A stretch of DNA of 44,151 bases from a virus (IMGVR_UViG_3300027754_000174:1-44151), one strand, 5' to 3'. Counted from the stretch's first letter, positions 17,079 through 44,151 are shown. Program-made: numbers and translations. Notes: generated from the sequence alone by a model not told the origin.

Positions 17079-17154
17079 GCGGACATAGCATAATGAATAG
17101 TGCAGGGCACTCTAACAGCCTAATATGAGAGTTTGAATCTCTCTGTCTGCACCA
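17079..17154 (+). tRNA. Amber-suppressor tRNA, anticodon CUA, with Ala-type G3-U70
   Basis: A 76-base cloverleaf including an encoded CCA end. Acceptor GCGGACA (17079-17085) pairs with TGTCTGC (17144-17150); the only wobble is G3-U70. D-stem GCAT/GTGC, anticodon stem GGGCA/AGCCT with loop CTCTAAC (17110-17116), T-stem GAGAG/CTCTC with loop TTTGAAT. The anticodon is CTA (17112-17114), flanked by U33 and A37, and reads UAG. G3-U70 plus A73 are the main identity elements of alanyl-tRNA synthetase, which ignores the anticodon, so alanine charging is predicted (inference). Oddities: an A31-A39 mismatch, a G27-U43 wobble and a D-loop lacking the usual GG. It follows a strong promoter and precedes an AAA+ gene by 24 bases. 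Confidence 0.85.
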
Positions 17155-30850: not shown

Positions 30851-30858
30851 CATAAATA
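30851..30858 (+). promoter_or_regulatory. Late-promoter octamer 6 bases from the start codon
   Basis: CATAAATA ends 6 bases before ATG 30865. If the T4 spacing applies (octamer at -13 to -6), transcription starts 1 base before the ATG, giving a virtually leaderless mRNA. No ribosome site is present. Confidence 0.6.
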
Positions 30859-30864
30859 ATACAA

Positions 30865-32478
30865 ATGATCCTTAACGAACTATTCACCACAGTGGACGAA
30901 GGAATACAAGATCCTAATATCTTCAAAGCATTGATGTTGATTGGTGGCCCAGGCAGTGGCAAGACCACAGTGGGAGAACATCTGATATCCGGCACTGGTA
31001 TCAGATCAGTGAATACTGACGCGTTCTATGAGATGATCAAATCTCGCAACTGGCTGGCTAAAAATCCTGGAAAAACTCGGGCAGATATGCCCAGCTGGGA
31101 CCTTCCGCAAGATATACAATCTGACCCAGACTGGAAAACCTCTACTAAATCTCAGTATAGTCGATTGGAACTATTGGTACAGGGCCGTCTGGGAATAATG
31201 TTGGATATGACTGGACGAGATGCTGAGTCCACCCAGCAGTACCGACAGGAACTAGAGCAATTGGGATATGATGTGGCTATGCTGTATGTGAGAACTCCCA
31301 CAGAAGTGGCACAGCAAAGAAATGCAGCACGGCGTCGCAGGGTTGACCCTGATACACTGGCTAACATACACACTGCGGTTAACACCAATGCGACCTATTA
31401 TAAACTGGTGTTTGGTGACAAGATGGTAATACTGGACAATCATCAGAGTCAGCCAGTACATCATCTGCTGACCAGCACTGAAGATTTTCATTGTGATCAG
31501 GGGGCTATCAGTATATCTCGCTGGTTTCGTCGTTGGCTGAAACAGCCAGTGAAAAACGATGCGGTCCAGGCTTGGAAACAAACTCAGCTAAAATCTCTTG
31601 GTCGCAAAGTATCTGTATCTGAGGATATCAATAAAAAATCATCCAGTACTCCAGTTCGTGGCGGAGTCAAAATCCTAGTGGATGCTGGCCTTGAACTAAC
31701 AGGAAAACAACTGCTGGCACTGGCAAAACGCCTTAACACTGAATGTGCTGGATATATCCGGGCCTTTAAACTAGCCCATCAGCCACTTTATCGAGGTATG
31801 GCGGATGAGGGTAGAGTGATGGTGGGTCGTAGTTATCAGCAAAGACGTCCGCTGGACAGTGACATAGGTGAAACTCAGCTATTTGATCAAGCACTAACTC
31901 AGCTGGGCATTGCCGCACAACGAGGCAACAGTATATTCACAACAGGAAATACTGGGCAGGCCAGCGGATATGGTGAAATATTTGCGGTGGTACCCAAAGA
32001 CACTGCAACATTTAGCTGGAGCAAGGGGACAGATGATCTCACTTTGCACGATGGAGACTTGGCAGCTGATAGGATCATAACCAGGCCTGCGGCAGTATAT
32101 GCACTGATAGAAAAAGAAATATCTCAAGTTACCCACCAAATTGATACAGAGAAAAATCAGGCTAAGCTCGCCAAGCTCGATAAGTATGCTGACGAACTGC
32201 TTCAATTAGAAGGAGCTCTGGAGATTCACGACGAACGTCAAATAACGATGAACATGGCATGGATACTGAAAAATATGCCAAACTCTGAGGTAGCCCAGAA
32301 CTCAGCAGCAATACTCAATCCCGTACTAGACATCAAAATGTTCCAGAAAACATATGTCATGTCAGATAAGAATCTAGTAGCAGCAATTAAAAATCACGAC
32401 GAGATTCTGATACGCGGCGAATACTATGCCATGGAACCAGATATATGGGAAACACTGCTTACCCGTAAACTTATATAA
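30865..32478 (+). CDS. Tagged P-loop kinase / ADP-ribosyltransferase-like fusion
   Basis: A 537-residue two-domain protein with an N-terminal tag-like start (MILNELFTTVDE). Residues about 20-230 are a P-loop kinase of the PNK/zeta-toxin/AAA_33 type: Walker A GGPGSGKTT (27-35), a substrate-site NTDAFYE (50-56), and a lid with RNAARRRRVD. Residues about 275-537 are shared with the proteins at 32488 and 40834 and carry ADP-ribosyltransferase-like elements: LYRG (308-311, Arg), NSIFTT (355-360, STS-like) and DEILIRG (E513). T4 Alt is also a tagged, injected ADP-ribosyltransferase. The transferase assignment is by motif order only and could be wrong. The kinase substrate (RNA 5' end, nucleotide or protein) is unknown. 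Confidence 0.72.
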   Translation: MILNELFTTVDEGIQDPNIFKALMLIGGPGSGKTTVGEHLISGTGIRSVNTDAFYEMIKSRNWLAKNPGKTRADMPSWDLPQDIQSDPDWKTSTKSQYSRLELLVQGRLGIMLDMTGRDAESTQQYRQELEQLGYDVAMLYVRTPTEVAQQRNAARRRRVDPDTLANIHTAVNTNATYYKLVFGDKMVILDNHQSQPVHHLLTSTEDFHCDQGAISISRWFRRWLKQPVKNDAVQAWKQTQLKSLGRKVSVSEDINKKSSSTPVRGGVKILVDAGLELTGKQLLALAKRLNTECAGYIRAFKLAHQPLYRGMADEGRVMVGRSYQQRRPLDSDIGETQLFDQALTQLGIAAQRGNSIFTTGNTGQASGYGEIFAVVPKDTATFSWSKGTDDLTLHDGDLAADRIITRPAAVYALIEKEISQVTHQIDTEKNQAKLAKLDKYADELLQLEGALEIHDERQITMNMAWILKNMPNSEVAQNSAAILNPVLDIKMFQKTYVMSDKNLVAAIKNHDEILIRGEYYAMEPDIWETLLTRKLI

Positions 32479-32487
32479 GAGAAAATT

Positions 32488-33402
32488 ATGAGATACTCAG
32501 AGTTCATTACTGAAGCAGAAATCACCACACCAATTCCAGTGGCCGATTCACCAGGTTTCCAAGATCTGGCTCGGCTGCTGAACGAAAAATGTGGTGACTA
32601 TTTGAAGATATTTAAAGAAACTGGCAAGGTGCTGTATCGAGGTGCTGACCCTGGTGCTCTGGCATTCAGTGGCCGCAGCAGAGATGACAGAAAACCCAAA
32701 GACAGCGATCCCACAGCTCACCGTCTGGTGAATATTGCCCTGACTAAACTGGGTATTGCCGCTCGTCGTGATAACAGTGTATTCACGACTTCTAATCAGA
32801 ATATGGCTGGTGAGTTTGGAGTTATTTACATCATCATTCCCAGAAACTCAGCTGTGTACAGCTGGAGCAATGACCGTGATCTTACACTAAACCTCGCCAC
32901 TGTGCGACTGCATAGCAATAGCCGCGACTGGAGACTGTTACGCCGGGCTGCGATTGAGGGGAAGGTGATTGAAAGTCAGGCGGATGACCTGGTCACAGCT
33001 CATCAGGAATCTCAGCGTGAGGATAAAACTGGGTTGGATGTTCTGCGGGATAATAGATACAGGGCCCTTAAACTTCTGGCCATTGCCCAAGGCATGCTTC
33101 TAACTGGCGGAGATGAAATAAACCAACAGATGTTAGATCCAATAACAGCGAAACCACTTCTGGATTGGGTGGTGGAAAATTGGCCCGATACTGTACTGGG
33201 TGCATATATTGCCAGAGAAATGGATCGTAGTTTGACCCTGCCCGTGGAAATAAACCCACAAAAACTGCAAGCAACTTATCAATTCACTGACGAAAATCTG
33301 GAAGCGGCATTAGAGAATGGTAATGAAGTACTGATTCACGGTGACTATATTGCAGTTAGACCCGGAGTGTGGAACGAGCTAACTGCGCAGGATCTGGTCT
33401 AA
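32488..33402 (+). CDS. Tagged ADP-ribosyltransferase-like protein, paralogue 2
   Basis: A 304-residue protein that is the clearest case of a capsid-targeting-like N-terminus: MRYSEFITE-A closely resembles the T4 internal-protein tag (MKTYQEFI-A/T-E-A), with I-T-E before Ala fitting gp21-type cleavage. The body is a paralogue of the C-terminal half of the previous protein: LYRG (49-52), RKPKDS (68-73), NSVFTT (96-101), YSWS (124-127) and a final GNEVLIHG (E280) with W about 12 residues on. These fit the R-S-E layout of ADP-ribosyltransferases, though the first Glu of the usual ExE is replaced by Gly. It lacks the kinase domain. It follows the kinase fusion by 9 bases, with GAGAAAATT upstream. 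Confidence 0.7.
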   Translation: MRYSEFITEAEITTPIPVADSPGFQDLARLLNEKCGDYLKIFKETGKVLYRGADPGALAFSGRSRDDRKPKDSDPTAHRLVNIALTKLGIAARRDNSVFTTSNQNMAGEFGVIYIIIPRNSAVYSWSNDRDLTLNLATVRLHSNSRDWRLLRRAAIEGKVIESQADDLVTAHQESQREDKTGLDVLRDNRYRALKLLAIAQGMLLTGGDEINQQMLDPITAKPLLDWVVENWPDTVLGAYIAREMDRSLTLPVEINPQKLQATYQFTDENLEAALENGNEVLIHGDYIAVRPGVWNELTAQDLV

Positions 33403-33417
33403 TTCTAAAAATAACCC

Positions 33418-33425
33418 GCTAAATA
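33418..33425 (+). promoter_or_regulatory. Late-promoter octamer 4 bases from the start codon
   Basis: GCTAAATA ends 4 bases before ATG 33430; transcription by T4 spacing would start within the start codon or, with small variation, exactly at it. No ribosome site is seen, so leaderless translation or read-through from upstream must supply this gene. Confidence 0.5.
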
Positions 33426-33429
33426 CAAC

Positions 33430-33981
33430 ATGCGATTACTGGAATTTACCAACAAGCCTACACTGTATCTGGATATGGATGGCGTACTAGCCGACTTCTT
33501 TGGCGCCTGGGCACCGGATCTGGGCGGTACCAGCTGGGAAGATATTAAGCATCGCTCAGACGCTGACAAAGCTGCAAGTATTCGTCGGCTAAGTCAGGAT
33601 GCACGTATAGTGCGTGACTTCTTCCAGAATCTAAAAATTCTGCCTGGTGGTGTACAGTTACTGGCATGGTTATCACAGAACAAAGCACCATTCACCATAC
33701 TCAGTTCTCCACTACAAGGCCGCAATGCTGATGCCAGTATTGAGGGTAAGCGGCTCTGGCTGGCTGATCAGGGATTATCCAGAGTACCTGCTATATTTTC
33801 CAGAGAAAAATATCACTATGCTACACAGCCTGACGGCACTGCCAACATACTGATTGATGACTACGGAAAAAACATCACAGCCTGGACAGAGGCTGGGGGT
33901 CAGGCTATCAAGCATGATGACGCTACAGTGCAACACACTCTAACACAACTTCAGCAATTACTCAGCCAGTATAAATACTAA
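33430..33981 (+). CDS. HAD-family phosphatase (5'(3')-nucleotidase-like)
   Basis: A 183-residue HAD hydrolase. Motif I is D15-M-D17-GVLADF, with D15 as the phosphoryl acceptor; ILSSPL near residue 92-97 is motif II, and NILIDDYGKN (about 138-147) is motif IV. The pattern is that of 5'(3')-deoxyribonucleotidases and of polynucleotide 3'-phosphatases such as the phosphatase domain of T4 Pnkp. The N-terminus MRLLEFTNK looks like a degenerate form of the tag seen in neighbours, without a clear cleavage site. It sits between a kinase/transferase cassette and a ligase-containing giant protein, so a nucleic acid end-repair role is possible. Confidence 0.82.
   Translation: MRLLEFTNKPTLYLDMDGVLADFFGAWAPDLGGTSWEDIKHRSDADKAASIRRLSQDARIVRDFFQNLKILPGGVQLLAWLSQNKAPFTILSSPLQGRNADASIEGKRLWLADQGLSRVPAIFSREKYHYATQPDGTANILIDDYGKNITAWTEAGGQAIKHDDATVQHTLTQLQQLLSQYKY
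33970..33977 (+). promoter_or_regulatory. T4-type late promoter, exact TATAAATA
   Basis: Exact consensus octamer inside the last codons of the HAD gene, 16 bases before ATG 33994 of the giant nucleotidyltransferase gene. Confidence 0.7.
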
Positions 33982-33993
33982 TTGGACATCACT

Positions 33994-36900
33994 ATGAACC
34001 TATTTGAACTGTTTAACCAACCAGCACCGCGTCAGATACTACCAGAAGGCGGAAACCTAAGAATTGGCGATGCCACCAAGGGTGAAACTGTTCACGATGC
34101 TGATGAAATTGACCTCAAAGTACATAAACGCAGCTTTATCATTCCCATATTGGCTAAACTGTTACAGGATATCAATGATGCGTTTGAAGCCCAGTATCAG
34201 GCTCCTATATGGAGTCAGCAACTATTAGCCAGCAAACAGTTCCTAGGTGGCAGCAGTCTACATTTCTTCAATACTCGGGGTATATCAGATCAGCAATTTG
34301 TGGCCAAGAAGCCCAAAGTGGGTGATATCGACACCCAGTGTAACAAAGCACTGGAAGCGCACATCCATGAGTTTCTCACCAACTATACACACAAAAAAAT
34401 AGGTGATACTACTTTGCTGGGGTTCAGTGCAGGTAACGAACAATACAATGCACTGTTTGAGTTTCAGAATCCGCCCATCAAAGTACAGATTGATTTTGAA
34501 TTCGGCAGATACAATCCAGAAACCAATGAACCAGACGACTGGTTTAAGTTCAGCCACAGCAGTGACTGGGCTGATATTACCGCTGGTATCAAAGGAGTAT
34601 TTCACAAATACATTTTCCGTGCGCTCAGTGGCATAACCGCACAGACTGCATATATTGCCAAGCTGGCGGGCAGAGGCAAGGATCGTGCCATACAGATATC
34701 ATCCGAGCCAGAAGAAGTCAACATGGTATCATTTGCTGTGGCCAGCAAACTGGGTGGTGGAGTAAGTCGGAAATACAAACCCTATATTGACCCAGAAACT
34801 GGTAAGCCCATGATGCACAACAAGTTGCCAGTGCTGGAACTCATAGTATCAGCAGATCGCCACTACGAACAAGATCTTAAAAAACAGTTCCAGATGTTTT
34901 TCGGCAGAAAGCCCACAGCCAGTGACTCAGCATTACAACAGAGCTTTCTGGGCACACTGGACCTGATCAACAAGTATGTCAGCACAGATAAAAAAGCTGG
35001 CATTGTGGAAGACTTCTTGCAGATATGCTTTGACCCTGGTACTGCTCAGATGATCACCCGAGATGACCCACAGCGTGATGCCCAGATCAAGTTCATGGCT
35101 GTGGATGCCATGCTGATCAAACTGAACTTGAAGAACCTGCGTACCCGAGCTGTGCAACTGGCTCAGACATATGAGGATAATTTCCGGGCAGTGGCTGAGT
35201 ACAAGAAACAAAATCCCGGAGTGAAAAATCCCAGAGCTGCCATGATGAAAGCAGCAACGCTGGCTGAAGCAGCTGAGCCCACAGTTAAAGCACAACTGCG
35301 CAAAGGCATGCCACATCTACATGATCTAAAAGCTCTGGATTTCTTGGATTTACTGGACGAAATTCATGACGGCCGTGGTAGCTTCAAACTACAAAACATT
35401 CCGCTAAATGTCAAAGTGGATGGCTTTGGTGGACGATTTGGTAAAGACGCTGCTGGTAAACCATTCATGGCCACCAGCCGCACTGAACCCAGATATCAAC
35501 CTGGTTTCTTGAAATATCATGAAGAAAAAGGCACCACTGATCCTGAAGTATTGAATCGTGCTAAACTATTTGATAAATTATTTCATGAGATGATGCAAGC
35601 TGTACAGATGGTGGACCGCAAACTGGGCACTGACTTTCTGGTCAACAAGCAAGTGGTGTGTGAAGTGTTGTTTATGCCATTTGCCACACTGACTCCTGAA
35701 GGCAAACTGAAGTTTGTGGGCATTGCTTATGATAAATTACCCGATGGTGTACAATTGGCATTGGTGCCCATTCGTGTTACCACTGGCGACACTGGTGAAG
35801 ATTTTCCTGGCTCTGATAAATTCATCCAACAATTGCTGAGCCTGGGCCGCCAGGGCAGCGTGATGTTTATTGACAACAGCCTGACTCAGAATCGCGCACT
35901 GGATGTGACTGAGATTATCAATCCGCTGGAAAACCTGGATCAACTCCGGCAGATTGTGTCAGACACTCAGGGTAAGCGAGATCGTGCCAGTTTACAACTA
36001 CGTCGTGAAGTTGAAGAAAAACTACAGCCTGTGAAAGTTGCACTGGAACAGGCCATTGTCCAAGACCCTAATATCATTGGCAAGGAGTTGCTGGGTAAAG
36101 ATTATGAAGGCATTGTGATCAACAGCCGACTGGGACCTATCAAAGTTACCAGTCAGCAACAGCGTGATGTCATCAGTGCTAAGAACTCAGCCAAGTCAGT
36201 GAGCTCACCGGGATCACAGGATAAAACTGCTGTGGTGGCTATAGGCAGCTTTGTGGGACACCAGGGCCATCAACAGTTGTTTGATTACACTATTAAAAAA
36301 GCTCTGGCAGTGGGCGGTGACCCTTATTTGTTCATGGGCAGCGCGGTGGGTAAAAACGATCCCATTCCAGTGGCTGACAAAGTTAAAACCTGGCGATTGC
36401 TGTATCCACAGTATGCTGAAAACATCAGTGCTCAGACCATGGCGGGTGGATCACTGATGCAAAAAATCAAGCATGAACTGATAAATCCCACACCAGGTAA
36501 TCCACCCAGATATGATCGTATCATCATCATGGTGGGCGAAGATCAGGCCAATATGCCCATTGCGCAGGCCCTGATGAAGGCAGTCAACAAGTTTCCAGGA
36601 TATGAGCATGTGAAAGTCATACTGGAAACTACTCCGCGTGGTACAGGCATGAGCTTTACTCGACTGCGCGATGCTGTAGCCAATGACTCACCACAGCAAG
36701 CATTTCAGCTGTGGAACTCAGCATTCAATCACGGGAAGTTTGGCGCTGAGCAATTGCCTCAGAGCTGGATTCACCACCTAATGAAAGTCACAGCACAGGG
36801 CATGGGCATGGCTGATAAACCCACACTGGACGAGAGTGAGTTATCACGGGATATCCAGTTTCATACCCAACTAAACCCCGCACTGTGGCACAATAAAAAA

Positions 36901-37527
36901 CTCAGACCTGCTGTGGCTGATCACTTGGAAAAGATTGCTGAAGAATTTGAACGATTCCTGGATATGCCAGATCTGGATGTGACGGACATCACCATCAGCG
37001 GCAGTAATGCAGCCTATACCTATACCGACCATAGTGATGTGGATGTTCACCTAGTGGTAAAAGTACCAGCTGCAAAACAAGAGATGTTGCGCAAGTACTT
37101 TGATGCCAAGAAGGCAGTATTTACACAGCAGCATGATATTACAATACACGATCAACCAGTGGAAATGTATGTACAGTTCACCGATCAACCGCACATCAGT
37201 GCTGGACTTTACAGCTTAGCTGATGCTGACTGGATTGATGAACCCAAACCAGTGAGGGCGCATGTGGATCACGCAGATGTCCGCAGCAAGGTATTACAGT
37301 ATATTCACGCTATTCACAGTGCCATTCACAAAAAAAATCTACCAGCTATACAAAGAATTCGTACCCGACTGGTGAACTATCGCAAACAGGGACTGAACAC
37401 AGCTGGTGAATGGGGCACAGCAAATCTGGTGTTTAAGATTCTCAGGAATCACGGTATCTTAGATGATCTGAGTAAATACCAGACAGAATTACAGGATCAA
37501 GAACTCAGTATTGAGGAAACACGATGA
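33994..37527 (+). CDS. Tagged four-domain nucleotidyltransferase/ligase protein
   Basis: A 1177-residue protein. ATG 33994 is preferred to an in-frame TTG at 33982 because it begins the tag-like MNLFELFNQP, with a possible cleavage site after I-L-P-E18. Domain 1 (about 40-250): Pol-beta-type nucleotidyltransferase with GGSS (85-88), D111-I-D113 and a third acid in VQIDFEF. Domain 2 (about 440-730): DNA/RNA ligase-type nucleotidyltransferase with KVDG (K474), EGIVI (about 705) and IKVTS. Domain 3 (about 745-920): HxGH-type nucleotidylyltransferase with GHQGH (H756, H759) and SFTRLRD. Domain 4 (about 960-1130): second Pol-beta-type with GSNAAYTYTD and DVDVH. I do not know this architecture as characterised. 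All four catalytic motifs appear intact. Confidence 0.78.
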   Translation: MNLFELFNQPAPRQILPEGGNLRIGDATKGETVHDADEIDLKVHKRSFIIPILAKLLQDINDAFEAQYQAPIWSQQLLASKQFLGGSSLHFFNTRGISDQQFVAKKPKVGDIDTQCNKALEAHIHEFLTNYTHKKIGDTTLLGFSAGNEQYNALFEFQNPPIKVQIDFEFGRYNPETNEPDDWFKFSHSSDWADITAGIKGVFHKYIFRALSGITAQTAYIAKLAGRGKDRAIQISSEPEEVNMVSFAVASKLGGGVSRKYKPYIDPETGKPMMHNKLPVLELIVSADRHYEQDLKKQFQMFFGRKPTASDSALQQSFLGTLDLINKYVSTDKKAGIVEDFLQICFDPGTAQMITRDDPQRDAQIKFMAVDAMLIKLNLKNLRTRAVQLAQTYEDNFRAVAEYKKQNPGVKNPRAAMMKAATLAEAAEPTVKAQLRKGMPHLHDLKALDFLDLLDEIHDGRGSFKLQNIPLNVKVDGFGGRFGKDAAGKPFMATSRTEPRYQPGFLKYHEEKGTTDPEVLNRAKLFDKLFHEMMQAVQMVDRKLGTDFLVNKQVVCEVLFMPFATLTPEGKLKFVGIAYDKLPDGVQLALVPIRVTTGDTGEDFPGSDKFIQQLLSLGRQGSVMFIDNSLTQNRALDVTEIINPLENLDQLRQIVSDTQGKRDRASLQLRREVEEKLQPVKVALEQAIVQDPNIIGKELLGKDYEGIVINSRLGPIKVTSQQQRDVISAKNSAKSVSSPGSQDKTAVVAIGSFVGHQGHQQLFDYTIKKALAVGGDPYLFMGSAVGKNDPIPVADKVKTWRLLYPQYAENISAQTMAGGSLMQKIKHELINPTPGNPPRYDRIIIMVGEDQANMPIAQALMKAVNKFPGYEHVKVILETTPRGTGMSFTRLRDAVANDSPQQAFQLWNSAFNHGKFGAEQLPQSWIHHLMKVTAQGMGMADKPTLDESELSRDIQFHTQLNPALWHNKKLRPAVADHLEKIAEEFERFLDMPDLDVTDITISGSNAAYTYTDHSDVDVHLVVKVPAAKQEMLRKYFDAKKAVFTQQHDITIHDQPVEMYVQFTDQPHISAGLYSLADADWIDEPKPVRAHVDHADVRSKVLQYIHAIHSAIHKKNLPAIQRIRTRLVNYRKQGLNTAGEWGTANLVFKILRNHGILDDLSKYQTELQDQELSIEETR

Positions 37528-37961
37528 ATTTAGAACAAGCACTTAAAATCATACAAGCCAACGCCTTCTGTTTCTATGTAAAAGCGCACGCCTTCCACTG
37601 GAATTTAGAAGGTCCTGACTTCCCACAGTATCATAAATTTCTGGAAAAACTTTATACTGAAGTATGGGAGTCGGTGGACGCTATCGCCGAGCATATTCGC
37701 ACACTGGACATGTATGCTCCGGGTAGTTTGCGCAGATATCAGGAACTCACTCAGATCAAAGATCAGCTGATGGTTCCCAGAGCCGAACTGATGTTTGAAG
37801 AACTGCTGCATGACAACGCCACAGTGATACATAGCTTGGAAGAAGCTTATCATTTAGCAGGCGATCATCTGGGCCTACAGAACTTTCTCCAGGATCGTAT
37901 GGATGCGCATGAGAAACATGGATGGATGATCCGCGCCACTGGCAAACATCACAGAAGCTAA
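37524..37961 (+). CDS. Dps/ferritin-like protein
   Basis: A 145-residue four-helix protein of the Dps type. The Dps ferroxidase pattern is visible: AFHWNLEGPDF (about 22-32) with H24, then YHKFLEKLYTEVWESVDAIAEHIRTL (spanning about 36-61) with Asp/Glu positions, and DRMDAHEKHGWMIRA near the end. Dps proteins form 12-mers that oxidise iron and in some cases coat DNA. In a phage it could protect DNA from Fenton damage, or be packaged with it; the N-terminus (MNLEQALK) has only weak likeness to the neighbouring tags. The ATG overlaps the previous stop (ATGA), so translation is coupled to the giant nucleotidyltransferase. Confidence 0.82.
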   Translation: MNLEQALKIIQANAFCFYVKAHAFHWNLEGPDFPQYHKFLEKLYTEVWESVDAIAEHIRTLDMYAPGSLRRYQELTQIKDQLMVPRAELMFEELLHDNATVIHSLEEAYHLAGDHLGLQNFLQDRMDAHEKHGWMIRATGKHHRS

Positions 37962-37965
37962 AGTT

Positions 37966-38595
37966 ATGGTCATAGACGAATTGACAAATAATCGGCTAAA
38001 CAAAAGCTGGGGCTCAGGCTTTACTGGTGTAGCAGGCGCGCATATGTTAGCTAGATTAACTCCTGTGTCTGGGGTACCTTCATTACCAGGAAAAATACCC
38101 GAGGGCCAAGCAGTGGACTTCAGAGTAGGTTGGTATACCGGTGATATATGTGTTATATATGAAAACACTGTGGTAGCTTACCTAGCCCTGAAAAATCAGG
38201 ATATCACAGTGGGTGCCAGTTACTGGACAATGCATAAAGTAAACTCAGTAGCAGTTAACCAGGAATATCGCGGTCAAGATATTGCTCTGAGATTATATAT
38301 TGCATTAATCACAGCAGGCATTAATTTAATGACAGTGGGTTCACATAGCCTGGGAGCCAAGAAAGTATGGAATGAGCTGGCGAAGTCAGGGCAAGTCAGT
38401 GTGTGGGTCACTGATATGAACACATCTAAATTCTACACAGCTTCTCCAGCCAGTGGTACCCTCAGGGGAGTAAAGCATGGAAAGTTCTTTCCAGTGTATG
38501 GCCCACACAACTCACGAGAGCTGATTGCCACAGCCGCTGGTGGTACGCTGGATCGAGCTATCATCAAAGCCAGTAATGACCCAGCGCATAAATAA
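37966..38595 (+). CDS. GNAT-like protein, paralogue 1
   Basis: A 209-residue protein. Residues about 95-140 read like GNAT acetyltransferase motif A: VNSVAVNQEYRGQDIALRLYIALI (split here as VNSVAVNQEYRG and QDIALRLYIALI), with R/Q-G-Q-x-x-A replacing the usual Q/R-x-x-G-x-G/A for acetyl-CoA. It is followed by GSHSLGAKKVWNEL, a block shared with the proteins at 38600 and 41700. The N-terminus MVIDEL is only vaguely tag-like. The donor loop is imperfect, so catalytic activity is uncertain. No late octamer or clear ribosome site precedes it; it is probably expressed from upstream. Confidence 0.65.
   Translation: MVIDELTNNRLNKSWGSGFTGVAGAHMLARLTPVSGVPSLPGKIPEGQAVDFRVGWYTGDICVIYENTVVAYLALKNQDITVGASYWTMHKVNSVAVNQEYRGQDIALRLYIALITAGINLMTVGSHSLGAKKVWNELAKSGQVSVWVTDMNTSKFYTASPASGTLRGVKHGKFFPVYGPHNSRELIATAAGGTLDRAIIKASNDPAHK
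38587..38594 (+). promoter_or_regulatory. Late-promoter octamer exactly 5 bases from the start codon
   Basis: CATAAATA ends 5 bases before ATG 38600, so with T4 spacing the transcript starts at the A of AUG (leaderless). It overlaps the stop codon of the preceding gene. Confidence 0.6.
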
Positions 38596-38599
38596 ACAC

Positions 38600-39205
38600 A
38601 TGACCATCACTGAACTTGGCACAAATACGGTGGGTATGGACAGTTGGGGGAATCCCAGTGCTAGTCCTGCACGACTGCTGTACTTAAAAACTCAACCAAC
38701 TATGTTCACTGTGGACGAGCTGACGGTAAAATACTCACCAAGTAAACCAAGTAACTCTTGGCCAGCTGTATACGCACTGGATGAGAACAATGTGGCGTTT
38801 ACGCTGGAGCTAAACAAAATACTCACAACTGTGGGTACAAAAAATTATGGCATTTACTATGTCAACTCTGCGCATACTGCGGTAAAATACCGCAAGCAGG
38901 GATTGGGTTTACGTATTTATACTCAGCTGATCCTGGATCAGAACTGGAACTTGGCCGCATTTGACGATCACAGTGTGGGCGCACAAAAATTATGGAACCG
39001 ATTGGTAACCAACCCTGGTATCAGTGCTTGGTTTACTGATGGGCATCAGAATTTCTGGCCAGTGACTGCTGGTGTCACAGAGATGCAGGCCCGTGGTGAT
39101 AGTGTATACACTGGAGAGTACGGGGCTGGGGTAATAGTCACAGCAGCTGGCAGTGCGCTGGACCGTGCGATAATCCGCCTGGAGGCACAACGTGAGACTA
39201 TTTGA
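38600..39205 (+). CDS. GNAT-like protein, paralogue 2
   Basis: A 201-residue protein. ATG 38600 (MTITELGTN) is chosen over an upstream TTG at 38525 because it follows a late octamer by 5 bases and avoids overlapping the preceding gene. The GNAT-like core is INSAHTAVKYRKQGLGLRIY (about residues 87-106) with a good acetyl-CoA loop R-K-Q-G-L-G, then DDHSVGAQKLWNRL, shared with paralogues 1 and 3. The rest is aromatic-rich (AWFTDGHQNFW). Substrate unknown. Its last 14 bases overlap the next gene, whose GGAGG ribosome site lies inside it. Confidence 0.68.
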   Translation: MTITELGTNTVGMDSWGNPSASPARLLYLKTQPTMFTVDELTVKYSPSKPSNSWPAVYALDENNVAFTLELNKILTTVGTKNYGIYYVNSAHTAVKYRKQGLGLRIYTQLILDQNWNLAAFDDHSVGAQKLWNRLVTNPGISAWFTDGHQNFWPVTAGVTEMQARGDSVYTGEYGAGVIVTAAGSALDRAIIRLEAQRETI

Positions 39206-39734
39206 AATCTTTGATTCATATTTGGCATATGATATGTGGGGTTGGATATCTCCATCTGGGGTAGTAAAACTGCCCACCAGGGCAGATGCTGAAAGCAGAG
39301 AACTAGTGAGTCATATCGACATGCAGGAGCAATTGGGTCTGGGAGGAGAGTATGAGACAGCATGTCACCAGGGATGGATTCGGTGGTATCTGAAACAGGG
39401 TAGATTATGTTTCAATTGTTTTTGGCAACCACACACCGCAAAGGTCATTCTCAAGGCAGTACTAGCCATTAAAACTCTCATGAAAATGCCCAAAAGATTT
39501 CGGCATTTTCAGATCGCCAAAGGCGGCAAAACCAACCTCGTATGGCAAGTATTAAACTCTGGATCCAAGGCTCCGGAATTGTGGGTGGATTCATATGAGA
39601 TTGAGATAACCATGCCCTACCCTAATGCTGTCAGAATATATCTCCAAGACAAAAATCTCAGTACCATGCTGTCCGCAGCCCAGTCCAGGGTGGACACCAT
39701 AAATAACACAAAGGACACATATGAAAATCAGTGA
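39192..39734 (+). CDS. Tagged protein of unknown function
   Basis: A 180-residue protein starting at GTG with a strong GGAGG (39181-39185) 6 bases upstream. The start MRLFEIFD matches the tag pattern M-R-x-x-E-I/L-F. The body is Trp/Tyr-rich (MWGWISPSG, HQGWIRWYLKQGRLCFNCFW) with a basic middle (KMPKRFRHFQIAKGGK) and an ordered-looking C-terminal half ending in an Asn/Thr-rich tail. I recognise no family. Its place in the middle of the tagged cassette supports a packaged protein. A late octamer for the following gene lies inside its 3' end. Confidence 0.62.
   Translation: MRLFEIFDSYLAYDMWGWISPSGVVKLPTRADAESRELVSHIDMQEQLGLGGEYETACHQGWIRWYLKQGRLCFNCFWQPHTAKVILKAVLAIKTLMKMPKRFRHFQIAKGGKTNLVWQVLNSGSKAPELWVDSYEIEITMPYPNAVRIYLQDKNLSTMLSAAQSRVDTINNTKDTYENQ
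39698..39705 (+). promoter_or_regulatory. Late-promoter octamer (CATAAATA)
   Basis: Located inside the 3' end of the preceding gene, 15 bases before ATG 39721, with AAGGA (39711-39715) in between. Unlike several neighbours this gene has a normal leader with a ribosome site. Confidence 0.6.
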
Positions 39735-39924
39735 AATACTTGAAAACGCCAGCGCAGGAGCCAGCAGCAGTGGTGGCATGGCCACCAGCATGGGAGGCGG
39801 AAATGGTTTTCTCAATGGTGGGCCTGGAACAGTGAGACATGCTGGTGTCGACGTCATAGTACAGCCTGGGAAAAAACGCAAGCGAAAGCCCGCAGCAACC
39901 ACGCCCGTGCTGGGCACAGGATAA
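39721..39924 (+). CDS. Small tagged Gly/Ser-rich protein with basic tail
   Basis: A 67-residue protein: the tag-like start MKISEILE is followed by ASAGASSSGG, a Gly/Met-rich segment, then GKKRKRKP and a Pro/Thr-rich end. I-L-E before Asn fits a gp21-type (L/I-x-E) cleavage site, which would release a small basic peptide suited to binding packaged DNA, much like the small internal peptides and IP proteins of T4 (inference). It overlaps the previous gene by 14 bases and has AAGGA upstream. Similar tiny proteins with this start occur in T4-like phages by my recollection. Confidence 0.65.
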   Translation: MKISEILENASAGASSSGGMATSMGGGNGFLNGGPGTVRHAGVDVIVQPGKKRKRKPAATTPVLGTG

Positions 39925-39936
39925 CAGGATAACATC

Positions 39937-40242
39937 ATGAATTCACCGTATACCAACTTTAGACAATTATTGGAATCACTGGACAGTATTGAAACGCAGG
40001 ATGCGCCAGTACCGCATCAAGATCACGAAATCAACATGGCGCATGTGGAACTGCTGAATCTCATGAGAAACAGTACAGAACTGTACGACATGCTCAGAGG
40101 ACAGCCTGAGGGTGGCGGATTGCCAGCATGGATCCAGGTTAAAATAGCACAGGCCAACGGCATGTTGGAAAGTGTAGCTGAATACATGCGAGAACAGCAT
40201 GTTCAACAAACCACTGGCGACTATCACTCTGGTAGTCGCTAA
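39937..40242 (+). CDS. Tagged helical protein of unknown function
   Basis: A 101-residue acidic, helical protein. The N-terminal FRQLLESLDS (residues 8-17) is nearly the same, also at the DNA level, as the start of the next protein (RKLLESLDS), while the rest differs. L-L-E before Ser fits the tag cleavage pattern. The body (ELLNLMRNSTELYDMLRGQ, AWIQVKIAQANGMLESVAEYMREQ) looks like a small helical bundle known in several T4-like phages as a conserved hypothetical. ACAGGATAACATC precedes the start. Function unknown. Confidence 0.65.
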   Translation: MNSPYTNFRQLLESLDSIETQDAPVPHQDHEINMAHVELLNLMRNSTELYDMLRGQPEGGGLPAWIQVKIAQANGMLESVAEYMREQHVQQTTGDYHSGSR

Positions 40243-40262
40243 ATCTTAAAGGATATCATGTT

Positions 40263-40832
40263 ATGGACTTGAGAAAATTATTGGAATCACTGGACAGCAT
40301 GTCTGAAGACGCCATACTGGATAAACCTCACAGCAGTAAACGGTTTGCTGATCAGGTCAGCGGCATCAGCGTGCTGGGTAATCCTGCAGGCGATCCCAAA
40401 CATCCGTTCCAGGGTAAGTTAGTGGGCGGCTGTGCTGAAGCTGATCAACATCTAGATGAAGATCTGATCCAGCAACTCACTCAGGCTTATGCTGATTTTC
40501 TCAGAGACAAGCCTGTTAAAACCCGTGTTCCCGATGCAAGTGTAGAAGAAAGTTCAGAAAAACGCTGTATGCAATGTGGCATGAAGAACTGTACTTGTGA
40601 ACCGGGCAAATGTAAATGTAAACCTATTGCAGGATGGATCCCAAACAAGGGATTTAAAAAAACAATAGAGCAAGTTGTGGATGAAGCCAAGCCCAGCAAA
40701 CTGCTGACTCGCGCACAGCGTAACGACACACCTGAAAAACGTAAACAACAAGGTCGCTGTGTATCCTGCGGGCAGTCACTGAGTACAGCTGGCCGCGGCA
40801 CGGCTGATCGCTGTAAAGAATGCAGTAACTAA
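40263..40832 (+). CDS. Tagged Cys-rich, probably zinc-binding protein
   Basis: A 189-residue protein beginning MDLRKLLESLDS, with L-L-E as a possible cleavage site. Residues about 100-120 have a dense Cys cluster (CMQCGMKNCTCEPGKCKCKP) and about 161-187 hold CVSCGQS and DRCKEC, so two zinc-binding knuckles are likely. The first cluster is almost metallothionein-like in Cys density. Between them is a basic linker (KKTIEQVVDEAKPSKLL). Such modules usually bind nucleic acid or protein. A competing ATG at 40258 is out of frame and stops after four codons. AAAGGA precedes the start. Confidence 0.68.
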   Translation: MDLRKLLESLDSMSEDAILDKPHSSKRFADQVSGISVLGNPAGDPKHPFQGKLVGGCAEADQHLDEDLIQQLTQAYADFLRDKPVKTRVPDASVEESSEKRCMQCGMKNCTCEPGKCKCKPIAGWIPNKGFKKTIEQVVDEAKPSKLLTRAQRNDTPEKRKQQGRCVSCGQSLSTAGRGTADRCKECSN

Positions 40833-40833
40833 T

Positions 40834-41661
40834 ATGAAGCTGCAAGAAATATTAACTGAGGAAGTGGTCGCACCCGACCAGTACCCGCTGATATTTCAGC
40901 AAATTCAATCTGAATGCAGTGACTATTTGCAGGCTGTGTATCAGGCTGGAGATCAGTATCTGTATCGTGGGGTTAATTACCGCATCACATACTTCACCGA
41001 CCAGTCTAACCCAGGACGTAAGCCCAAGGACAGCAGTTTGGAAACTACCATATTGTTTGACCAGGCCATGACTCAGGCTGGATTTGCTGCTCAGCGCAGA
41101 AACAGCAAATTCACCACAGGAGACTTGGATCTTGCGGAACGCTATACTGGAAGTTACAGTGAAGGTGAAGTATATGTGGTATTTCCGGTGAATGGATTTC
41201 AGTTTAGCTGGAGTCAGAAACATAAAGATATGATACTGGATGACCAGCCCAAGTGGGTGATGGATGGCCGGACGCAAATGTTTGATCAGATGGCACGCAA
41301 TTTACCCGAAATGAATAAATGGAAAATTCGGCCAAATTTACACCGATTACGCGCTGACTGGTTAGAACACTGGGGTGATCGGCAAGACCTGGAGCATTGG
41401 TTAATTCATGACATCAAGATTCCCAGTGCGATGTTGGCAAAATCAGCCGAGTACCACACAATACTGGGATATTTGTATGGTGACGCCGAAGATTGGTCTA
41501 TTATTGATTTGCCAGCGTGGCACCGAAAATTTCAGATGACTGATCGGGATTTGCCCAGTGCTATACGATCAGGCAATGAAGTACTAATCCAGGGTAAATT
41601 CCATGCCATACAAAACAACTGTGCAATGTGGCGTAACTGGGTGGACTTTCACAAAAATTAA
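40834..41661 (+). CDS. Tagged ADP-ribosyltransferase-like protein, paralogue 3
   Basis: A 275-residue protein starting MKLQEILTE-E, with L-T-E as a likely cleavage site. It shares the core of the proteins at 30865 and 32488: ECSDYLQ, LYRG (43-46), GRKPKDS (61-67), NSKFTT (90-95), FSWS (124-127) and GNEVLIQG (E249). Compared with its paralogues the segment between the STS-like and Glu motifs is divergent. The R...STS...E order fits an NAD-dependent ADP-ribosyltransferase, but the assignment is by eye. It starts 1 base after the previous stop, with no ribosome site beyond that supplied by coupling. Confidence 0.68.
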   Translation: MKLQEILTEEVVAPDQYPLIFQQIQSECSDYLQAVYQAGDQYLYRGVNYRITYFTDQSNPGRKPKDSSLETTILFDQAMTQAGFAAQRRNSKFTTGDLDLAERYTGSYSEGEVYVVFPVNGFQFSWSQKHKDMILDDQPKWVMDGRTQMFDQMARNLPEMNKWKIRPNLHRLRADWLEHWGDRQDLEHWLIHDIKIPSAMLAKSAEYHTILGYLYGDAEDWSIIDLPAWHRKFQMTDRDLPSAIRSGNEVLIQGKFHAIQNNCAMWRNWVDFHKN

Positions 41662-41686
41662 CCAGTAGCGGGCTTGGCGCCCAACC

Positions 41687-41694
41687 GCTAAATA
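41687..41694 (+). promoter_or_regulatory. Late-promoter octamer exactly 5 bases from the start codon
   Basis: GCTAAATA ends 5 bases before ATG 41700; T4 spacing puts +1 on the A of AUG. No ribosome site is present in the intergenic bases. Confidence 0.6.
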
Positions 41695-41699
41695 ATCGT

Positions 41700-42824
41700 A
41701 TGCGTATATCAGAGCTAACCGAGCACAGGCAATCCAAGGTCACTGAGATATCGGCAAACACTATATCTAAAAACATCCGATTACCTGCTTTTGTATATTC
41801 TGGTGAGATAAAACCAATACCAGGATTCGGCCATATTTCAGGTACTGGGCTCAACGGTAAACCCATGAACTTTGCGGTGAAACTTAGGCCAGCGGAATCT
41901 GAATATTTAATTCTTTTGCCAGCACCTAAAATAAAATTACAATATATAAATCTAGCGGCTCAGATAATGGCATTTACCCAGATGGAAGATACCTTTTATG
42001 TAAATGTAAACTTCTCTGAAATCAATGTTGCTACCAATACAGAGCAATTACAGTCTGCTTTGTCCCAGCAGAGAAAAAAGCTGGGTGAGAGAGATCCAGA
42101 CCTTGAAGGGAATTTTCTTTGGTTAGTCAAAGATGCGGCAGACAATCTACAAACTCGTGTTTTCCCCATTGCCTACCGCTGGCCCTGGATGGTATCCACC
42201 TCAGCAAACACCGCCAACTTCGCCTCCAACAAGCCTGCCGATTACATAAAAGTGGGCCATATGGAGTATGAAACAGCAAACATAGATTTGGTGAGTGACA
42301 AGGTAATTCCCAGTGATGTGGTTCAGTCAGCATCTGTGGACAGAGCATATCAGGGTCAATCACTGATGTGGGCCTTGTATTATGGATTAATTATTCATAC
42401 AGGCCGTAATCTAATGTCTTACGGAAGTCATAGTCCAGGAGCGGCTAAAACCTGGAGCCGACTGGGAGCGTCCAAGGGAGTACGCATCTGGGCACTGGAC
42501 GGGTATCCACGTGATATTACTTCACGGGTATATCCCACCATATCCACTGAAACTGGGCTGAAAACCACAATAAACGGCAGGGTAAAATCAGTGTACAAGC
42601 ATTCCGTGGAGCTCACACTATTGGCAGTGACTCAGGGAAGTGAGGCGGATAAGCGGCTGGAAAAGATCGCGGCTGCTACTAAGACACAGGAAAAACCCAG
42701 TAAGCAACCACCAAGTATTCCGCCAACTACTGAAGTAGACGAAGAACAAAACCAGGTCAGTGAACCACTTACTGATACCACAGGCCTCAGCAGTTGGCGA
42801 GGTTTCTGTCCAATGGCAGAATAA
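41700..42824 (+). CDS. Tagged two-part protein with GNAT-like domain, paralogue 3
   Basis: A 374-residue protein starting MRISELTE, with L-T-E as a possible cleavage site. Residues 20-160 are an unrecognised alpha/beta domain. Residues about 205-255 hold the GNAT-like core VDRAYQGQSLMWALYYGLI and GSHSPGAAKTWSRLG shared with the proteins at 37966 and 38600; the acetyl-CoA loop (Y-Q-G-Q-S-L) is degenerate. The C-terminal 60 residues (about 315-374) are Lys/Pro/Gln/Glu-rich and disordered. The AT-richer 5' part (about 41900-42020) has slightly different base use from its neighbours. A late octamer places its mRNA start at the AUG. Confidence 0.65.
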   Translation: MRISELTEHRQSKVTEISANTISKNIRLPAFVYSGEIKPIPGFGHISGTGLNGKPMNFAVKLRPAESEYLILLPAPKIKLQYINLAAQIMAFTQMEDTFYVNVNFSEINVATNTEQLQSALSQQRKKLGERDPDLEGNFLWLVKDAADNLQTRVFPIAYRWPWMVSTSANTANFASNKPADYIKVGHMEYETANIDLVSDKVIPSDVVQSASVDRAYQGQSLMWALYYGLIIHTGRNLMSYGSHSPGAAKTWSRLGASKGVRIWALDGYPRDITSRVYPTISTETGLKTTINGRVKSVYKHSVELTLLAVTQGSEADKRLEKIAAATKTQEKPSKQPPSIPPTTEVDEEQNQVSEPLTDTTGLSSWRGFCPMAE

Positions 42825-42832
42825 ACAAATTT

Positions 42833-43771
42833 ATGACTGATATTAATAACTCTAATTCTAAAAAACCAGAAGATAACCAAGACAATAAGCCTTCAGTTAA
42901 TTTTGAAACTGGCGGTGGGCAAATTACAGCTGATCCACAGGCAGGTGTTGATGCCAGTGGCAGTGTGTCAACTAGTACTACAGCGGTCGGAGTAACCATG
43001 ACTGCCAGTGCCAGTGGAGAAGCTCATTCCAGTGCTGGCACAGAAATTACTAAAACATCAGTAGCTGCAACAGCAGAAGTTGGGGCTGGGGCAGAGGCAG
43101 GAGTTAGTGCTACAGGGCAAGTAGGTGCTGCTGAGTTATCAGGAGAAGCACATGTTAGTGCAGAAGCAAATGCAAGTGCAAATGCCAGTGCAGGATGGGA
43201 TGGTCGCAATGCCAGCGTTACAGCAGAAGTACAAGCTGGTACTAGTGTAGAGGCTGGAGCAAGTGCAAATGCTAAAGTTGGTGATATAACAGTTACACAA
43301 GAAGCACATGTTGGTGCAGAAACTAATGCCTATGCTGGTGCAACAGCTCAAGTGGGTAAAGACGGCGCCAGTGTTCATGCAGGGGCCATTGCTGGAGCAA
43401 GTGTGGGGGCAGGTGCATCAACTACTGTAGGCGACAGTCATGGTAATGCCGCTAGGGCAGATGCAGGTGTTAGCGTGGGGGCTCAAGTGGGCGGAGAAGT
43501 TGGTGGTGGCGCAACCATGAACCATGGTGTTGCTACGGTGGGAGTTAGCGGAGAAGTTGCATTAATTGCAGGCATTGAACTCAATACCAGCGTTAGCGTT
43601 GATACTACCCCTGTTCAACAAGCAGCAGTTACTGTTGCTAAAGAAACAACCAACGCAGCTAATACAGTTGCTAAGGAAACAACCAACGCAGCTAATACAG
43701 TTTCAAAAGGTGTAACTGACACTGCTAAGAAAGCCGGCAATGCACTAAACCCAAAGAAATGGAAATTTTAA
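42833..43771 (+). CDS. Ala/Gly/Val-rich repetitive protein with LEA-like tail
   Basis: A 312-residue low-complexity protein of unknown function. ATG 42833 is preferred to an in-frame TTG at 42794, which would overlap the upstream gene. Residues 1-40 are polar (Asn/Asp/Lys). The centre (40-250) is built of short alternating repeats rich in Ala, Gly, Ser, Val and Thr (ASANASAGW, VGAGAEAGVSATG), suggesting a beta-helix or amyloid-like stack. The end has two 11-residue VAKETTNAANT repeats, like the amphipathic helices of LEA or apolipoprotein-type proteins, then a basic NPKKWKF. It lacks a tag. Codon use is shifted to A-ending codons (GCA, ACA), unlike neighbours, hinting at separate origin. Confidence 0.65.
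   Translation: MTDINNSNSKKPEDNQDNKPSVNFETGGGQITADPQAGVDASGSVSTSTTAVGVTMTASASGEAHSSAGTEITKTSVAATAEVGAGAEAGVSATGQVGAAELSGEAHVSAEANASANASAGWDGRNASVTAEVQAGTSVEAGASANAKVGDITVTQEAHVGAETNAYAGATAQVGKDGASVHAGAIAGASVGAGASTTVGDSHGNAARADAGVSVGAQVGGEVGGGATMNHGVATVGVSGEVALIAGIELNTSVSVDTTPVQQAAVTVAKETTNAANTVAKETTNAANTVSKGVTDTAKKAGNALNPKKWKF
43634..43699 (+). repeat. 33-base tandem repeat encoding an 11-residue unit
   Basis: Two 33-base units (43634-43666 and 43667-43699) differ at one base (AAAGAA/AAGGAA). Each encodes VAKETTNAANT. An 11-residue period is typical of LEA-like or apolipoprotein-like amphipathic helices. Confidence 0.85.
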
Positions 43772-43832
43772 AAGAACACTACCTCAGCAGTGTGGCTCAT
43801 CAGTTGAGCCAGTGAAAGTCAGCATAGCTCAG

Positions 43833-43840
43833 CATAAATA
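43833..43840 (+). promoter_or_regulatory. Late-promoter octamer exactly 5 bases from the start codon
   Basis: CATAAATA ends 5 bases before ATG 43846, so the transcript should start at the AUG. No ribosome site is present. It is the third gene with exactly this spacing. Confidence 0.6.
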
Positions 43841-43845
43841 ACCAC

Positions 43846-44151
43846 ATGCGCTATTACGAACTGATAACTGAAGACTTCAAGTCAGTCACTAAGAAATTCA
43901 TTGATGCTGGTGCTGACTCAGCCGAGGTCAAAAAGTATATTGACCAGTTTAAGGCATTGGGTACTAAATTAAACAATATTACAGACCCAGCTGATAAAAA
44001 CATTGATGTCTGGGGTAAGCGGCCATTTGCTGATTTTCAGAAATTTGTCACTGATATCGGCACTGCTGTCACCAAGAGCAGCCAGAAGAAAGATGCTGGC
44101 ACCAGTATTGATATCACAACACCAAAACAAAAAGCAGCTGGGTGGAATATA
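43846..44151 (+). CDS. Tagged phage protein, 3'-truncated by window end
   Basis: An open frame of 102 codons that runs off the window. It begins MRYYELITE-D, a near-perfect tag with I-T-E as cleavage site, close to the start of the protein at 32488. After the tag comes a helical segment (KFIDAGADSAEVKKYIDQF, then KALGTKL) and NIDVWGKRPFADFQKFV, a small helical module I have seen at the N-termini of varied T4-like phage proteins, followed by a polar linker. What lies downstream is unknown, so its enzymatic domain, if any, cannot be named. Confidence 0.65.
   Translation, partial: MRYYELITEDFKSVTKKFIDAGADSAEVKKYIDQFKALGTKLNNITDPADKNIDVWGKRPFADFQKFVTDIGTAVTKSSQKKDAGTSIDITTPKQKAAGWNI

Follow-up and report, generated by a model that had tools for sequence, protein, structure and literature searches.

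The window analysed here is a full IMG/VR record of 44,151 bases (IMGVR_UViG_3300027754_000174), a fragment of a virus genome, and it ends in a run of genes (positions 30,865 to 44,151) whose products begin with similar short peptides, here called tags, joined to bodies of different families. With a probability that we put at about 0.8, this run represents the genes for head cargo in an uncultured jumbo myovirus related to T4, and the tag would serve as a capsid-targeting sequence (CTS) of the T4 type. In T4, the internal proteins IPI, IPII and IPIII as well as Alt carry a CTS that is processed by gp21. The observations behind this reading are the tag itself, its statistics, its modularity together with a conserved junction, the protease and scaffold genes of relatives, and late-type boxes ahead of tagged genes. 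The window is placed among the T4-related jumbo myoviruses by its clamp loader, which is 51% identical to that of Pseudomonas phage PA5oct, 47% to that of Sinorhizobium phage Phosso and 41% to that of Agrobacterium phage Atu_ph07; a megablast search of the window against cultured phages gave no matches.

Tagged genes in the window and in its relatives

Seven starts from this run had been quoted in an earlier note on this DNA as resembling the T4 internal-protein tag, and all of them are present: 32488 MRYSEFITE-A, 43846 MRYYELITE-D, 40834 MKLQEILTE-E, 41700 MRISELTE-H, 39721 MKISEILE-N, 40263 MDLRKLLE-S and 33994 MNLFELFNQPAPRQILPE-G. Further tag-like starts had been overlooked at 30865 (MILNELFTTVDE-G), 39192 (MRLFEIFD), 33430 (MRLLEFTN) and 38600 (MTITELGTN) and, more weakly, at 37966 (MVIDELTN) and 39937 (MNSPYTNFRQLLE-S). 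The same note had proposed that a profile of the tag be built and the rest of the genome searched. For this, a position profile was derived from 87 tags of IMG/VR relatives, with the window left out, and its false-positive rate (FPR) was calibrated on 8,321 internal methionines. Ten of the 15 genes of the run pass at 1% FPR and eight at 0.2%, against none of the 36 genes upstream (Fisher p = 2e-7); the starts of the run that fall under the threshold are MDLRKLLE, MVIDELTN and MNSPYTNFRQLLE.

The genes of the run that carry a tag or a tag-like start are as follows (coordinates, strand, description; a slash marks the candidate cut; ART, ADP-ribosyltransferase):

30865..32478, +, kinase (AAA_33 / zeta-toxin-type P-loop; Pfam AAA_33 7e-14) with a C-terminal ART-like domain; tag MILNELFTTVDE
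32488..33402, +, ART-like protein (phrog_11975); tag MRYSEFITE/A, score 14.0
33430..33981, +, 5'-nucleotidase-like HAD protein (Pfam NT5C 2.8e-7, phrog_2643); weak tag MRLLEFTN without a cut site, score 4.7, 1% FPR
33994..37527, +, protein of 1,177 amino acids (phrog_19290, phrog_3041, phrog_36119); tag MNLFELFNQPAPRQILPE/GGN
37966..38595, +, GNAT-like protein (Acetyltransf_9 E 0.0012, under the Pfam cut-off); weak tag MVIDELTN, score 0.2, not significant
38600..39205, +, function-unknown protein (phrog_15502 E 0.0019); weak tag MTITELGTN, score 3.2, 1% FPR; start codon picked from the position of the box at 38587
39192..39734, +, MWGWISPSG protein with a GTG start (weak RLIG1 match under the cut-off); tag MRLFEIFD without a clear cut site, score 8.7
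39721..39924, +, small Gly/Ser-rich protein (phrog_17311); tag MKISEILE/N, score 14.8
39937..40242, +, small protein beginning MNSPYTNFRQLLE/S, a candidate longer tag by sequence and tag profile, not significant
40263..40832, +, two-Cys-cluster protein (zinc-ribbon-like, from sequence); MDLRKLLE/S, score -0.4, under the profile threshold
40834..41661, +, ART-like protein with motifs YRG, NSxFTT and ExxI; tag MKLQEILTE/E, score 12.9
41700..42824, +, unknown-family protein; tag MRISELTE/H, score 8.8
43846..44151, +, gene start running off the contig end (phrog_28193 3e-10); tag MRYYELITE/D, score 12.0

Since the regular expression behind the training tags was shaped by the window and by T4, the profile test is not fully blind, and the contrast between upstream and downstream genes in relatives constitutes the stronger test. 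A scan of IMG/VR with the window ClpA yielded 80 related loci, in which tag rates were compared on either side of ClpA. The tag expression is matched by 81 of the 577 genes downstream (14%) versus 15 of the 711 upstream (2.1%; p = 1e-16), and by 26% of the genes at 4-6 kb; shuffled N-termini and internal methionines give a background of 2.2-2.6%. Genes of the relatives were called by a simple script, and some wrong starts add noise on either side of ClpA. The tagged bodies in relatives include PGRFQPF nucleotidyltransferase-like proteins, VGRKYQHIEDLV proteins, DHEVQMAR proteins and Gly-rich TTAGSVATVA proteins. Contigs reached via the ART-like domain also hold tagged runs, e.g., L193/L200 and L199; in the IMG/VR records L193 (242-kb) and L200 (172-kb), tagged paralogues of the ART-like type form long runs, accompanied by a nucleotidyltransferase-like protein with a tag and by a Dps-like gene.

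The earlier note had described the bodies as unrelated, which stands insofar as diverse families are represented and fails for three window genes (30865, 32488 and 40834) that share one ART-like domain; the C-terminal part of the 30865 product is 38% identical to the 32488 protein. As to the body types it had named, a nucleotidyltransferase-like protein (33994), Cys clusters (40263) and, weakly, a GNAT-like protein (37966) were recovered, while the GNAT-like call for 41700 found no family match in Pfam and profile-library searches. The 33994 protein is made up of three parts, namely a GGN domain, a cytidylyltransferase-like domain and a nucleotidyltransferase-like domain, and the 39192 protein has tagged homologues in the record L033.

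An exchangeable peptide with a constant junction

The start of T4 IPIII, read from the T4 record, is MKTYQEFIAE/A. Genetic work in T4 attributes targeting mainly to residues 4 and 7 and processing to residues 8 and 10, and gp21 cleaves after L/I-X-E (PMC9026906). Counted back from the Glu, MRYSEFITE, MKLQEILTE and MRYYELITE match the IPIII register (hydrophobic, x, acidic, hydrophobic, hydrophobic, x, Glu). Of 89 strong tags, 80 have L or I at position -2, where the expression permitted L, I, F and M. A peptide in this register that ends in L/I-x-E is found at 32488, 33994, 39721 (ILE), 40834, 41700 (LTE) and 43846, and is weak or absent in the others.

The clearest indication that the tag behaves as a module comes from the family of the GGN protein (33994). 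The window tag is MNLFELFNQPAPRQILPE and those of relatives are MRLCEFTQPVNKTLLVE, MRVREVILE, MKIAALLESRKCLLE, MKIAAILESRKCLLE, MKISQVTNKFKLFE and MINKTILNE, each of them followed by GGN, and the protein of Campylobacter phage CP220 starts MKLSELMFILE/GGN. Thus, across GGN orthologues, the length and sequence of the tag differ and the [LI]xE/GGN junction is constant. The same boundary marks the start of an untagged homologue, which in Vibrio phage phiKT1024 begins M-GGN, and alignments with homologues in Vibrio phages open at residue 19 of the window protein. A second GGN family has starts of 5-6 residues and the same junction. In a similar manner, orthologues of the 30865 kinase retain [VLI]xE/G ahead of a conserved IFKA segment. 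An AlphaFold model of the 40834 protein (pLDDT 82.6) is confident from residue 11, not earlier.

Atu_ph07 is the only cultured phage in which the ART-like genes have homologues (28% identity) at the search threshold applied. Its genes gp53-gp63 form an array of eleven adjacent tagged genes with the tag M[KR]W[EHDQ]QL[TN]E, in which residues 1-8 share a mean pairwise identity of 70%, versus 5-8% for residues 9-32. This array sits inside coding sequences 31-76, a region for which mass spectrometry (MS) gave 29 virion proteins (PMC6102473). Homologous ART-like bodies, each tagged, thus lie in a cluster of virion proteins, although the authors called these proteins unknown structural and the tag is not among the features found in that main text (PMC6102473). 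GenBank MF403008 has no MS notes on gp53-gp63. If cut after LTE/LLE, the predicted mature starts would be SLSYTNIDEIPEK for gp56, AVTDVQDITTLEQLTEYVNTHCK for gp61 and TAEETYIEAK for gp63. Two members of the array deserve mention: gp53 (L005 19484-21820) is a tagged protein of 778 amino acids that combines a zeta-toxin-type kinase with an ART-like domain, the same pair as in 30865, and gp63 (L005 29504-30592), also tagged, is ART-like and carries a long insertion in its N-terminal part. A weak GNAT match (E 0.005) comes from one member of the family.

It could be argued that the resemblance among tags is due to chance, or that it was inherited through duplication from one ancestor, given that three window genes share one ART-like body and that short charged or hydrophobic N-termini are common. 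However, the background is 2-3% and upstream genes lie at that level, the tagged bodies come from different families, and the Atu_ph07 tag is far better conserved than the adjoining sequence, which makes this explanation extremely improbable. Chance or common ancestry as the origin of the tag is contradicted by the enrichment and modularity tests.

Head machinery and late-type boxes

An S77 prohead protease is encoded by all eight IMG/VR relatives of at least 199 kb and by six cultured phages (Atu_ph07, PA5oct, Phosso, phiKT1024, CP220 and S-B68). The scaffold located between the protease and the capsid gene contains 19-22 [LI]xE sites versus 7-9 expected (z 4.1 to 5.9), and the capsid N-termini of relatives contain LLE and LAE sites. 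In addition, a small post-portal gene, in the position of T4 gene 67, has a tag-like start in the four phages read, with a canonical L/I-x-E in two; that of PA5oct is annotated as detected by ESI-MS/MS. As a separate observation, the post-tag Gly/Ser-rich sequence of the 39721-39924 family (also in L072, L077, L111 and others) resembles the capsid protein just after the capsid's own LAE site (SATAGATAASNVATLNR).

These data also bear on the idea that the tag does direct proteins to the prohead core and is cleaved off, while many of these proteins belong to the core or structure of the head, giving it shape or filling it, rather than being injected effectors. The core-type post-portal gene bears the same tag, the T4 core proteins gp67 and gp68 are likewise cleaved by gp21 (PMC9026906), and no enzyme domain is seen in the small Gly-rich proteins, 39721 for example. 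Nevertheless, most tagged bodies are enzyme-like without an obvious structural role, and they differ greatly among relatives, the ART-like set being missing from most, so we regard a predominantly structural role as unlikely.

The first gene of the run is preceded by the following element:

30851..30858, +, T4-late-promoter-like box CATAAATA, before 30865

Like boxes occur at 33418, 33970, 38587, 39698, 41687 and 43833, and of the 13 window genes with a tag or tag-like start, 7 have a box ahead of them. Among genes of relatives, 35 of 152 tagged versus 126 of 2,577 untagged ones have a box no more than 60 nt away (p = 3e-13), and the same boxes are found ahead of some structural genes. Judged from sequence, they fit late, virion-type expression of proteins with early-effector-looking bodies. 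The boxes at 30851, 33418, 38587, 41687 and 43833 each stop just 5-7 bases short of the ATG of a tagged gene, and a clear Shine-Dalgarno sequence is missing there; the late mRNAs of those five genes might be leaderless. This arrangement lends something to the proposal that the peptide has another role inside the cell, such as binding of a common partner, stability control or translation start on late mRNAs with short leaders. Yet conservation is seen at the protein level with varied codons, and a translation signal leaves unexplained both the [LI]xE junction across tag lengths and the match to IPIII, so that we give little credence to such a role.

A predicted cargo set and its relation to known systems

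From this evidence, we infer that the tagged proteins are targeted, cleaved, packaged and injected, and any activity of the ART type is likewise an inference. In the proposed sequence of events, late synthesis would give each tagged protein a leading peptide of ~8-18 residues, whose usual form is M-[KRN]-hydrophobic-x-[ED]-hydrophobic-hydrophobic-x-E. Through this peptide the protein would dock on the core of the prohead, in the manner of the T4 CTS. The S77 (gp21-type) protease would then cleave after [LI]-x-E and release the mature protein in the head before DNA packaging. Once mature, the ART-like proteins, the kinase, the nucleotidase, the nucleotidyltransferase and the other enzymes would most likely leave the head together with the DNA and act immediately on the new host.

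Several results weigh against this interpretation. The likeness to the T4 tag with its L/I-x-E site, as put forward in the earlier note, holds for the IPIII register and the conserved [LI]xE junctions but not for all window tags, as the site is non-canonical or missing in 30865 (score 7.7, 0.2% FPR, with a candidate cut before G13 after VDE), 33430, 38600 and 39192. No head operon, prohead protease, scaffold or capsid genes were seen on the 44-kb contig, which limits direct testing. The 29 MS proteins of Atu_ph07 were counted over coding sequences 31-76 as a whole and could in principle all come from untagged genes, and in PA5oct the tag profile is passed by 4 of 70 MS-positive versus 2 of 108 MS-negative proteins, which is not significant (p = 0.17). 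Finally, the GGN protein is untagged in some phages that have the S77 protease, so its packaging is not essential everywhere: the homologue of Vibrio phage phiKT1024 (found by tblastn and aligned from window residue 19 on) starts M-GGN, as does a Phosso protein recognised by its start alone. In the main texts, the virion lists of Campylobacter phages do not name the GGN protein.

Regarding the ART-like bodies, the motifs YRG, NSxFTT and ExxI, which we take to be the R, S-x-T/S and E motifs of R-S-E type ADP-ribosyltransferases, occur in order and are nearly invariant in 26 sequences. The family has no ART matches in Pfam and no PDB matches by profile or by fold (model of 40834), so it is labelled ART-like only and its activity is hypothetical; weak BFVD fold matches are named ART-PolyVal-like (E 0.02 and 0.27). 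A three-sequence structure model (pLDDT 38) was discarded. Searches of IMG/VR with a three-sequence alignment (A3) gave loci, and those with a single ART-like protein or with alignments A1 and A2 gave none. The ART-like profile found no member in 38 related records, which marks this as an accessory body outside the conserved locus. In T4, one type of cargo, Alt, is an ADP-ribosyltransferase that is N-terminally processed and injected; the parallel with the tagged ART-like proteins is suggestive only.

The kind of system is already known from T4. The T4 CTS and the tag described here are both short N-terminal peptides with a hydrophobic/acidic register, a terminal L/I-x-E and divergent mature bodies, and in both cases (here in relatives) an S77 protease accompanies a scaffold rich in [LI]xE. 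Unlike the handful of T4 internal proteins, about a dozen tagged genes occupy one 13-kb stretch here, their bodies are mostly enzyme-like, their tags vary more in length and sequence, and their packaging is a prediction. In phiKZ and SPN3US, many head proteins, ejected ones included, are propeptides cleaved after x-x-E (PMC5694885), but the motifs there are S/A-x-E or A-x-E and the propeptides mostly exceed 100 residues, as opposed to 8-18 residues and L/I-x-E here. Polyvalent proteins and head-packaged ARTs, described by Iyer, Aravind and colleagues, likewise include host-directed enzyme domains, ART and GNAT among them, predicted to be injected with DNA (PMC7824862; PMC9503650), the prediction resting there on head-protein fusion or gene neighbourhood and here on an N-terminal tag on separate proteins.

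More broadly, we lean towards the view that one N-terminal sorting code, a CTS ending in L/I-x-E, is shared by a large clade of uncultured jumbo phages related to T4 and brings into their heads a broad set of host-directed enzymes that changes quickly, such that the injected set could be read from the genome. Injected phage proteins act ahead of phage gene expression and include counter-defence factors, but recognising them is difficult. With a tag that can be read from sequence and has a defined cut site, candidates for the injected effectors of large phages could be listed directly from genomes; such a tag would also assign a role to function-unknown virion proteins, those in the Atu_ph07 cluster being an example, and provide new enzyme families for study. 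Since the T4 tag already packages foreign proteins, related tags might be delivery tools in other phages. Reviewers have proposed that the CTS enables T4-like phages to take in various proteins (PMC9026906); the open-access papers found did not describe how large and varied the set is, or how widely it is spread among uncultured jumbo phages, subscription papers and preprints lying outside the search.

The remaining genes of the run are untagged:

37524..37961, +, Dps-like protein (phrog_3636; NCBIfam Dps 2.6e-9)
42833, Ala/Gly-rich protein

The Dps-like gene recurs within the tagged run in many relatives. PADLOC returned a weak match to a nucleotidyltransferase domain and nothing else. Upstream of the run, ARAGORN calls a tRNA at window positions 17079-17154 that has the anticodon CUA and is given the name tRNA-Pyl; it may be an amber suppressor. 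The window genes read normally with table 11.
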